DNA of 55,958 nucleotides from an alpha proteobacterium MED-G10 (GTDB taxonomy: Bacteria; Pseudomonadota; Alphaproteobacteria; Methylaequorales; Methylaequoraceae), in the NCBI GenBank assembly GCA_002457065.1, contig NTKR01000003.1:1-55958 (forward strand), read 5' to 3'. A model generated the notes under the pieces. That model was not told the origin of the DNA and searched no databases. It saw only the letters and a program-made list of their open reading frames with translations. The stretch's first letter is position 1, and every line of letters starts with the position of its first letter. Below, piece by piece: positions 14,783 through 17,986 of the stretch. A program made the position numbers and the translations under genes.

Positions 14783-15601
14783 CTAACCTTTCTTTAGAAA
14801 TATCTCGCCTAACCCATTAGCATTTTTATCACCAAAATATCTAATAAATTTTTTTTTATCTGGAAGGGTAACTGAAAAATTACTTTTCATATGTGTAGCC
14901 AACAAATCAAGGAAGATGAAATTTATCACACCAGATTTTTCAAATCTTTTTCCAAATTTTCCGTTTGACATTAAAATTATTGTTCCGCGTTTCATAGATA
15001 TTCCAATGCTCTCAGCGAAACTCTTAAAGATCATTACTGTTCCTGAAATCATCTGAAAAGCACAGTATTTTCCAACATTTCCTCTAATAATTATAAGGCC
15101 TCTTCTCATATGCGCTGCAGCAAAACTTCCAACACTACCAGTTACTAAAATAGTTCCACCAGTCATTCCTGAACGGGTTCCTACAAATGCAGAACCTAAA
15201 AAATTTTGGACATTTTTTTTTACATGCACATATCCACCAAGCATTGAAGACCCCAAAAAATCTTCAGCGGAACCATTTATAATCAATTTGCCACTTCTCA
15301 TTTTAACAGCAGCGAAGGACCCTACGTCGGAATCAATTCTTAAGTGATCTTTTTCCCAGCCATATCCAATATAATTAAAAAATTTATTAGATCCTGAAAT
15401 AAAAACCTCATCGTAATCTAAATTATTTTTTTTTAAAATTATTGTAAAAATATCTTTAACTTTACATTTTTTATTTTTGTAAATAAGAGGAATATTTGTA
15501 ATTTTTTTTTCAGTTTTTTCTATTAAATTGATTGAACTTAAGTTCATCAAATTTAATTCGGCATCGATTGGTTTTTTTACTTTAAGTAAAATTTTATACA
15601 T
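14783..15601 (-). CDS. fhcC: Formyltransferase/hydrolase complex subunit C
   Basis: 272 residues, homologous to formylmethanofuran dehydrogenase subunit C. The centre is a right-handed beta-helix made of repeats like GSFAAVKMRSGKLIINGSA, FLGSSMLGGYVHVK and CAFQMISGTVMI (GxxG-type turns, also seen in the glutamate synthase C-terminal domain). In methylotrophs FhcABCD converts formyl-H4MPT to formate via methylofuran. The start overlaps the fhcD stop by 8 nt. Last gene of the leftward pcd-fhcB-fhcD-fhcC operon. Confidence 0.92.
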   Translation of the reverse strand: MYKILLKVKKPIDAELNLMNLSSINLIEKTEKKITNIPLIYKNKKCKVKDIFTIILKKNNLDYDEVFISGSNKFFNYIGYGWEKDHLRIDSDVGSFAAVKMRSGKLIINGSAEDFLGSSMLGGYVHVKKNVQNFLGSAFVGTRSGMTGGTILVTGSVGSFAAAHMRRGLIIIRGNVGKYCAFQMISGTVMIFKSFAESIGISMKRGTIILMSNGKFGKRFEKSGVINFIFLDLLATHMKSNFSVTLPDKKKFIRYFGDKNANGLGEIFLKKG

Positions 15602-16487
15602 CTAAAATCTCTCTAAGTTTAAAGTGATAGGGGCCTAGATTACCTCCATAATTTCCAGCTGATATAGAATGAATATTCTCATTATTTGTATCTAAAATTG
15701 TTTTAATTCCAATCTTCATTGCATTTTTTATATCAACTTCAGATATACCATCTATTACTATTTCTAAAACACAGCCAACCTCCTCATTAAGCTTAGATTT
15801 GACTAAACTTTTTAGACCAGGACAATATTCAAAATTTGTAGAGGCAATTAAATTCCTATATTTAGATCCAACTTTTGATCCGGATCTAACAATACCTCCT
15901 GGAAACGGAAGGATTACGTTTTTTAACTTATTTATTTGAATTACAGCTTTTTCTGTAACATCTAAAACAGACTCAATATCTTTGCCTAAAATTAAGAAGT
16001 TCCCTCCCCCGATTCCTTTGGTCTGATATGCAAATTCCTCACAAATAAATTCACCATCCATTACTGGAATTCTCCAGTATCTTTTGTCACCAACCTTTTT
16101 GGATATTTGGAATCCATCACCAAAATACCTAAGTGATTTTCCAAGACTAATTTTTTTATCTGATAGATTTCCTGAAAATAATGCTGATGTTGGTGAGGTC
16201 ATTACACATTGTCCTGCTCTGTTTAAAATTTGTTTAGCCAAATCTTTTTCAGACATAGAGAAAATTAAAATTGAAATTCCCGGCCTTCCATCAGGTGTTT
16301 CATTTTTTTCTAAATAAGATTCTATACCAGCCTCACAGCCACATGCTATTACTGAAGTGGCAAAACCTACAAAAGAGTTAGCTGCCTCCAAAGCCCATTT
16401 TTTTGTGTACGCAGTAATAACCAGCCTAGAAACTTTCATTGGAAAAGCCTCGGCAAATGTATTTTCAACAATTATTTCTTTTTTCAT
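15594..16487 (-). CDS. fhcD: Formylmethanofuran:H4MPT formyltransferase (Ftr), FhcD
   Basis: 297 residues. It transfers the formyl group between H4MPT and methylofuran. Start region IIVENTFAEAFPMK, the CGCEAGIE segment, TPDGRPG and the C-terminal SAGNYGGNLGPYHFKLREIL are all classic Ftr signatures. I chose the ATG at 16487, one base after the fhcB stop, rather than an earlier codon within fhcB. It directly follows fhcB, with no fhcA between. Confidence 0.95.
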   Translation of the reverse strand: MKKEIIVENTFAEAFPMKVSRLVITAYTKKWALEAANSFVGFATSVIACGCEAGIESYLEKNETPDGRPGISILIFSMSEKDLAKQILNRAGQCVMTSPTSALFSGNLSDKKISLGKSLRYFGDGFQISKKVGDKRYWRIPVMDGEFICEEFAYQTKGIGGGNFLILGKDIESVLDVTEKAVIQINKLKNVILPFPGGIVRSGSKVGSKYRNLIASTNFEYCPGLKSLVKSKLNEEVGCVLEIVIDGISEVDIKNAMKIGIKTILDTNNENIHSISAGNYGGNLGPYHFKLREILDV

Positions 16488-16488
16488 T

Positions 16489-17628
16489 CTAGTTTTTTTG
16501 AATTTCTTCAATCAACTCAATTGGTGATAGGTAATTTGAGTCAAAGTTTTTCTCTAGTTTTAATATTCCACCATTATCTGATCTTACAATAAGTCCGTTA
16601 GCATCAAATCCAGGGGTAGTAGTTGGTAAAAAAACATCAACTTTATTCTTTTCTACAAAATTAGGATGACCAATAAAAATATTATTTTTAAAAAAAAGAA
16701 GGTTAGGATTTGGTTCAAAATTTGATATGTAGATTTGAATATTTTTTATCTTTTTTTGTTTTTCTAATGAAATTGAATTAGGTTCATACAATGGGCCAAT
16801 TTCAGTAAAATTTATTGCATTTGGATATCCGGTTTTTGTAACGCACGCATTTACAAAACCTCCTGAATTATGCGAACCAAAAATATTAAAAATTTTAATT
16901 CTATTTTTCTTATTCACAAACTTTACAAAATCAAAAATTGAATGTGTTAACGCATAGTCTTTTTTTTTTATATTCGCTAAAACAACTGGAAATTTTGATT
17001 TGATGAATTTTGCTTTCAAATTGTTTAATTTTAAATCTTTTGAAGTGTTGTCTTCTAAAAGAAAACTCTTCAAATAATTAACTTGATCAATTATATCTGA
17101 ACATTTATCAATTTTCCTATCATTAAGAAAAAAAATCGTTTTTTCTTTTTTTTGTTTATTCCAATTAAGGTCTTTGAAAAAATAAGACGAAAAATCTTCT
17201 TGTCTGGCACCCACCACCAGAACAAAATCAGCTCTTTTTTTTAATTCATTGAATGACACAAAAGATCCTCCGTATTTTTGAAAGGCTGAAAAAAAAATAT
17301 TTAATTCGTCACTACACATATGATTTATTGATGCCCTGTACTTTTCAGCAAAATCAATGACCTTGTACATTGATTGCAAATCAGTACTAAATCCATCAAT
17401 GTGTATTGATTCCTCAAGTCTAATTATTTTTTTTACTTCCCGGAGTGCCTCATTATATGAAACTTTATTTCCTTTCACCAATGGGCTAGAATCAGATATG
17501 GATTGAAAAGATTTATTTCCTCCATCTTTATTTTCCATTGGCGCAAAACTGTATCCCTTACCCATTTTTATAAATGGAGTCAGCATTGAACAGTAAACAC
17601 AACTATCTTTATTTTTTTCTTTTAACAT
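16489..17628 (-). CDS. fhcB: Formyltransferase/hydrolase complex subunit B
   Basis: About 379 residues, homologous to formylmethanofuran dehydrogenase subunit B. The N-terminus carries a CVYC pair, then SSPLVKG and a molybdopterin-enzyme-like core (ADFVLVVGARQEDFS; FGSHNSGGFVNACVTKTGYP; VDVFLPTTTPGFDANG). In methylotrophic bacteria this subunit lost the metal and redox role of the archaeal protein. I start at ATG 17628, overlapping the dehydratase gene by 20 nt; TTG 17661 and ATG 17646 are alternatives. No Shine-Dalgarno is clear, so coupling to the upstream gene is likely. Confidence 0.88.
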   Translation of the reverse strand: MLKEKNKDSCVYCSMLTPFIKMGKGYSFAPMENKDGGNKSFQSISDSSPLVKGNKVSYNEALREVKKIIRLEESIHIDGFSTDLQSMYKVIDFAEKYRASINHMCSDELNIFFSAFQKYGGSFVSFNELKKRADFVLVVGARQEDFSSYFFKDLNWNKQKKEKTIFFLNDRKIDKCSDIIDQVNYLKSFLLEDNTSKDLKLNNLKAKFIKSKFPVVLANIKKKDYALTHSIFDFVKFVNKKNRIKIFNIFGSHNSGGFVNACVTKTGYPNAINFTEIGPLYEPNSISLEKQKKIKNIQIYISNFEPNPNLLFFKNNIFIGHPNFVEKNKVDVFLPTTTPGFDANGLIVRSDNGGILKLEKNFDSNYLSPIELIEEIQKN

Positions 17629-17986
17629 ATGCAAATCTTGGATCATCAGGAGTGCCTTCAAGACTTAACCCTTCTTCCACAGGGTTCCATAATATAAATT
17701 CATCAATCTTTTTTGCTAAGTCAAAATCAAGTTGAGTAATACCTTTTTTTGCATGGTTCATTAATTTTACCTCTACAAATGCATATGAAACCACCAAGTC
17801 TGGGTGATGCCAAGCTAGTTCAGCCAAGTGACCAATAGCATTAACAACCATTAGTGTGCTTTTCCAACTATGCGTTTTATAAGTTTTTCTAATCCATTTC
17901 CCGTCAAATGACCATTCAGAACCTGTGTTTCTTATCCATTCATTAATTTCCTCTTCGTTAAATATTTTTATTTCCTTAGCATTCAT
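17609..17986 (-). CDS. Pterin-4a-carbinolamine dehydratase family protein
   Basis: 125 residues. The family motif is WHHPDLVVSYAFVEVKLMNH (about residues 64-83) with the usual two adjacent His plus a later His. PCD-like genes are common in methylotroph H4MPT clusters, where they probably act on pterins during cofactor synthesis or recycling rather than on phenylalanine hydroxylase cofactor. First gene of the leftward fhc operon; divergent from the beta-RFAP synthase gene across 90 nt. Confidence 0.88.
   Translation of the reverse strand: MNAKEIKIFNEEEINEWIRNTGSEWSFDGKWIRKTYKTHSWKSTLMVVNAIGHLAELAWHHPDLVVSYAFVEVKLMNHAKKGITQLDFDLAKKIDEFILWNPVEEGLSLEGTPDDPRFAYVKRKK

Follow-up and report, generated by a model that had tools for sequence, protein, structure and literature searches.

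The window, i.e., the whole stretch of 55,958 nucleotides analysed here, carries a normal Fhc operon that lacks fhcA at its canonical place, and the same is true throughout its family of marine alphaproteobacteria, which matches TMED127/Methylaequorales. An intact fhcA is found on another contig in the genome of this methanol-using bacterium of the open ocean. Comparison of the FhcA, FhcD and FhcC trees makes it rather likely that this is more than a relocation, and that an operonic clade I fhcA was lost and an unlinked clade II FhcA took over.

The fhcB-fhcD-fhcC Operon

The genes fhcB (16489..17628, 379 amino acids), fhcD (Ftr, the formyltransferase subunit; 15594..16487, 297 amino acids) and fhcC (14783..15601, 272 amino acids) are lined up in tandem on the minus strand of the window. 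Subunit identities were assigned with NCBIfam profiles and their curated cut-offs. FhcD (TIGR03119, 409 bits, cut-off 292.6) and FhcC (TIGR03122, 199 bits, cut-off 130.65) scored above these values, and the divergent FhcB subunit scored below (TIGR03129, 74 bits, E = 7.6e-21, cut-off 327.8); among solved structures, its sole match was FwdB (5t5i_B), at E up to 1e-5. Upstream of fhcB there is a pterin-4a-carbinolamine dehydratase (PCD)-like gene (17609..17986, minus strand), whose best NCBIfam match, NF002017, was slightly below its cut-off (73.8 bits, cut-off 80). This gene is the canonical start of the operon and the same neighbour is present in other alphaproteobacteria, in which the canonical order is PCD-fhcB-fhcA-fhcD-fhcC (e.g., loci L085, L086, L088, L093, L141, L147, and L159).

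The original prediction described fhcB and fhcD as one base apart and followed by fhcC, with no FhcA-like ORF in the 56 kb. Both the junction letters (...AAC TAG a ATG AAA...) and the coordinates agree with that description: a single base (16488..16488, minus strand) separates the TAG stop from the ATG, and it constitutes the closed fhcA slot. The overlap between fhcD and fhcC is 8 bases. Likewise, no FhcA-sized amidohydrolase was present among the ORFs of the 56-kb window.

Within the family, identity to the FhcB of the window was 34–42%, vs. 59–83% for FhcA, indicating a fast-evolving FhcB. In two genomes, fhcB is split into two overlapping ORFs (G001, L062:9611-10793; G009, L067:5476-6628), which reflects either an error in sequencing or decay.

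An Intact fhcA on Another Contig

The assembly to which the window belongs (G000; 0.99 Mb in 42 contigs, 77.9% complete, listed contamination 0) was searched in all six frames, which revealed a 546-residue ORF at G000:C1:67128-68741, on a contig other than that of the window. It matched TIGR03121 over its full length (positions 2–554 of 556) with 637 bits, the cut-off being 392.75, and it was the sole strong FhcA match in the whole genome. One of the two options originally left open, that fhcA sits elsewhere, was thus the right one. All four FhcABCD subunits are therefore encoded in the genome, B, D, and C in the window and A on contig C1, FhcB being below its curated cut-off.

The best solved relative of this FhcA was 6s6y_A (455 bits), from the complex of Methylorubrum extorquens (PDB 6s6y). 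When aligned with 6s6y and with archaeal FwdA, the FhcA rows of the family keep the motifs that serve the dinuclear metal site in this fold, namely HxH, Lys, His, and Asp (TTDHPNG). The system resembles the M. extorquens FhcABCD in its four encoded subunits, in the FhcA metal-site motifs and in its best solved match, but it differs in the lack of linkage between fhcA and fhcBDC and in the strong divergence of FhcB.

Judging from these sequences, the FhcA encoded beside folE would complete the complex in trans with FhcB, FhcC, and FhcD. FhcD would move the formyl group from formyl-H4MPT to methylofuran, and FhcA would hydrolyse the resulting formyl-methylofuran to formate. The chemistry would then be unchanged, and the arrangement would represent a variation on the known Fhc system, not a new pathway. 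The finding of fhcA closes an apparent gap in the formaldehyde oxidation of TMED127.

Separation of fhcA from fhcBDC Across the Family

A search of the genome and its relatives with an FhcA profile, and a comparison of the fhc order among related genomes, had been proposed together with the original prediction. With G000 counted, fhcA was found in 21 of the 24 family genomes and fhcD in 18, one of them partial. Wherever both genes were present (16 of 16 genomes), they were on separate contigs, and contig-end arithmetic gave minimum distances between them of ~118 kb (G004), ~130 kb (G005), and ~165 kb (G006). The order in the family is PCD-fhcB-fhcD-fhcC, compared with the fhcA placed between fhcB and fhcD in other alphaproteobacteria. 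In a class sample, fhcA was within 1.4 kb of fhcD in 15 of the 16 other alphaproteobacteria with both genes, the remaining one (G296) having them divided between short contigs, and most named Rhizobiales loci read PCD-fhcB-fhcA-fhcD-fhcC. An fhcA in the operon between fhcB and fhcD, which is a usual trait and not an essential one, was not found in the family.

At its own locus, fhcA points away from folE in all family genomes whose contig extends that far; folE is mostly followed by hisI, and an RND efflux system is usually found on the opposite side. In G000 a folE-like ORF starts just upstream of fhcA in the opposite direction and is truncated by the contig end, and the complete folE of the relatives corresponds to Pfam GTP_cyclohydroI. 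Given this divergent orientation and the distance from fhcBDC, fhcA must be transcribed separately.

The gaps between fhcB and fhcD in the family range from 0 to ~20 bases, which rules out a remnant of fhcA between them. Thus, fhcA is missing exactly from its canonical slot, and this is a conserved gene dislocation. A second, operonic FhcA was not found in the family; the sole second FhcA match (G019, contig C37), at the edge of its contig, is nearly a copy of the TMED13-type gene (95–97%). A search for Zur-like boxes near the family fhcA gave one single-mismatch match in one of seven AT-rich loci, which is not evidence for such boxes.

The operon is further dispersed in genus g9 (G011 and G018), in which fhcDC, fhcB, and fhcA are on three contigs. 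Its loci L069 (G011:C5) and L075 (G018:C1) contain fhcDC without fhcB-PCD, and ETF-QO-like and TPR-like genes precede fhcD. On its separate contig, the fhcB of G011 is near mch.

With respect to the lineage, the fhcA locus is common to the records MED715, MED657, and TMED13. According to a 2025 paper (PMC12542740), MED715 and MED657 are named TMED127 members and TMED13 is listed as a genus of the TMED127 order; the same source describes a hopanoid-H4MPT-xoxF-PQQ "methylotrophy island" for TMED127/Methylaequorales and reports that the xoxF5 with the highest transcription in oligotrophic surface seawater comes from this order. The ORFs of the window match this hopanoid/H4MPT/xoxF/PQQ island. The match of the family to TMED127/Methylaequorales has the locus and the island as its basis, not a formal classification; the genome fits the order in its grouping with named TMED127 genomes, its small size and the island. 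The content of the window is like that of the published island, but the off-island fhcA is absent from the main text of PMC12542740, in which a term search gave no mention of fhc genes. Nor did the open-licence literature, supplements not included, yield any account of an fhcA outside the operon in TMED127. It must be noted that searches confined to the "methylotrophy island" miss this gene.

Phylogeny of FhcA, FhcD, and FhcC

The trees compare FhcA, FhcD, and FhcC, the FhcB subunit being too diverged for inclusion. FhcA trees were built from 75 rows in a quick version and from 45 rows in a careful one, and the sets were re-extracted more strictly, given that iterated FhcB, FhcC, and FhcD profiles had mislabelled some wrong-frame ORFs in GC-rich genomes. 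The FhcA trees part clade I, which is operonic in gammaproteobacteria such as Methylophaga and in many alphaproteobacteria, from a group (clade II) comprising the family, Rhizobiales, Sedimenticola-type sequences and the solitary FhcA of gammaproteobacteria. When the tree was rooted on two archaeal FwdA, clade II including the family was monophyletic (98), in rows that are AT-rich and composition biased and with a long family stem (0.6). The family shows the clade II state in 11 of 12 columns diagnostic of the clades. At five of these 11 columns (68, 187, 189, 215, and 266) the clade II state is derived, because the clade I residue is the one present in the two archaeal FwdA.

A different picture was obtained with the other subunits. 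FhcD joins the family with six marine-type alphaproteobacterial rows of families f23, f59, and f130 (99/95), and so does the tree of FhcD plus FhcC (100/98). These marine alphaproteobacteria share with the family the order PCD-fhcB-x-fhcD-fhcC as well as the closest FhcD and FhcD plus FhcC, but their fhcA is of clade I and is placed between fhcB and fhcD. Constraining the family FhcA to group with them was rejected (delta lnL 107, p = 4e-41). Joining the family with the whole of clade I was not rejected when the archaeal outgroup was left out (p = 0.57) and was rejected with archaeal FwdA included (p = 0.0009); the groups compared in these tests were partly defined after the first trees had been seen. 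The FhcA of the family is clade II and not the clade I type found in the operons of its closest FhcD and FhcC relatives.

A third type of operonic FhcA, very long-branched (stem 1.37), was observed in some alphaproteobacteria (L084, L082, and L087), and in G081 it co-occurs with a second fhc operon.

Origin of the Unlinked fhcA

The original prediction held that an intact fhcA elsewhere would reduce the case to a simple relocation. The first half of this reasoning stands, since fhcA is not missing, while the second does not agree with the trees, which indicate an FhcA clade other than that of the original operon. In a plain relocation, a Rhizobiales-like ancestral operon with a clade II fhcA would have had this same gene moved beside folE, with no exchange between lineages. 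We consider this unlikely, although it is the likeliest of the alternatives: clade II FhcA is also found in Rhizobiales/Methylobacterium-type operons, the family is itself alphaproteobacterial, and a grouping of family and Rhizobiales was rejected for FhcD at p = 0.042 only. However, the FhcD and FhcD plus FhcC trees place the family with marine alphaproteobacteria that carry clade I, and for FhcD plus FhcC the Rhizobiales grouping was rejected, again moderately, at p = 0.011. In addition, at eight FhcD columns separating the six marine rows from Rhizobiales, the family majority agrees with the former in six and with Rhizobiales in none, and the family FhcA is closer to the Sedimenticola-type (51.4% identity) and solitary gammaproteobacterial sequences (49.7%) than to those of Rhizobiales (47.2%).

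Discordant trees alone are silent on which gene moved. Accordingly, the reverse could be proposed, with the family keeping an old clade II FhcA and either its fhcBDC, or the fhcA of the marine alphaproteobacteria, having been exchanged. This is improbable, as fhcB, fhcD, and fhcC keep their canonical order, their neighbours and the closed slot, and fhcA is the displaced gene. It is more improbable still that the contig with fhcA is a binning contaminant in a genome truly without the gene. The assembly is indeed fragmented and incomplete, but its FhcA shares 83% identity with the one in a genome of the same genus, the nearest relatives of this FhcA are all family members, and fhcA is found beside folE again and again in the family, with no contamination listed. 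Finally, a true absence of FhcA, with FhcBDC serving another pathway or working with another amidohydrolase, as the original prediction had entertained, draws on nothing beyond the absence within the 56-kb window and can be dismissed, given the intact canonical fhcA with its metal-site motifs in this genome, its occurrence in most of the family, and the formaldehyde oxidation to formate through the H4MPT pathway that PMC12542740 infers for the TMED127 order.

Replacement of the operonic fhcA is the explanation we favour with reasonable confidence, and with no higher one because the Rhizobiales alternative was rejected only moderately. Most likely, an ancestor already had, or gained, a solitary clade II fhcA besides the operonic one, as Methylophaga still does; the clade I gene of the operon would then have been lost without a remnant, the solitary copy taking over. 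On good, not final, evidence, the subunit was probably replaced by a copy from another lineage. Lineages may thus be able to exchange a single subunit of a C1 complex made of four, the other three staying together.

Clade II FhcA Outside the Family

Outside Rhizobiales, clade II FhcA was never adjacent to fhcD among the genomes examined. Several genomes of Methylophaga and one MAG of a Methylococcus sp. contain two FhcA genes, one of each clade type, the FhcA adjacent to fhcD scoring ~765–810 bits vs. ~635–660 bits for the solitary one. The latter resembles that of the family in being clade II and away from fhcD. These genomes differ in having retained the operonic clade I fhcA and in that the solitary gene is often next to a COG0523 GTPase, whereas the family has the solitary FhcA only, beside folE.

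In five Methylophaga-type loci the solitary FhcA is directly next to a CobW/COG0523 GTPase, and in another it is within ~1.1 kb of one. Across Methylophaga and the Methylococcus MAG, the loci with such neighbours are L123:8986-10014 and L121:8107-9998, and also L124, L126, L129, and L130. DUF3299 is found near the solitary FhcA in Methylophaga, and in the Methylococcus MAG the gene comes after those for CobW and DUF1826 proteins, with a TonB receptor also there. Clusters of COG0523 and DUF1826 under the control of Zur are described in the literature on zinc homeostasis (PMC2770081). In Methylophaga and the Methylococcus MAG, the second, solitary gene possibly encodes a metal-starvation FhcA, and its position near metal-homeostasis genes is hereby brought to attention. 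A broader reading, which we regard as speculative, is that clade II FhcA is mobile and independently regulated, with links in part to the metal-homeostasis loci of gammaproteobacteria, and that it ousted the subunit encoded in the operon from a methylotroph order abundant in the open ocean. The product would be a hybrid Fhc complex with altered metal economy or regulation; equally tentative is its proposed composition, in which an FhcA of clade II would join an FhcBCD with closest relatives that work with clade I FhcA.

In Sedimenticola-type genomes, clade II is the only type of FhcA; in three of them one contig holds both genes, and ~15–16 kb separate fhcA from fhcD. In the Sedimenticola-type loci L198, L202, and L204, fhcA is paired with fhcB, and the FhcA and FhcD trees are discordant there too.
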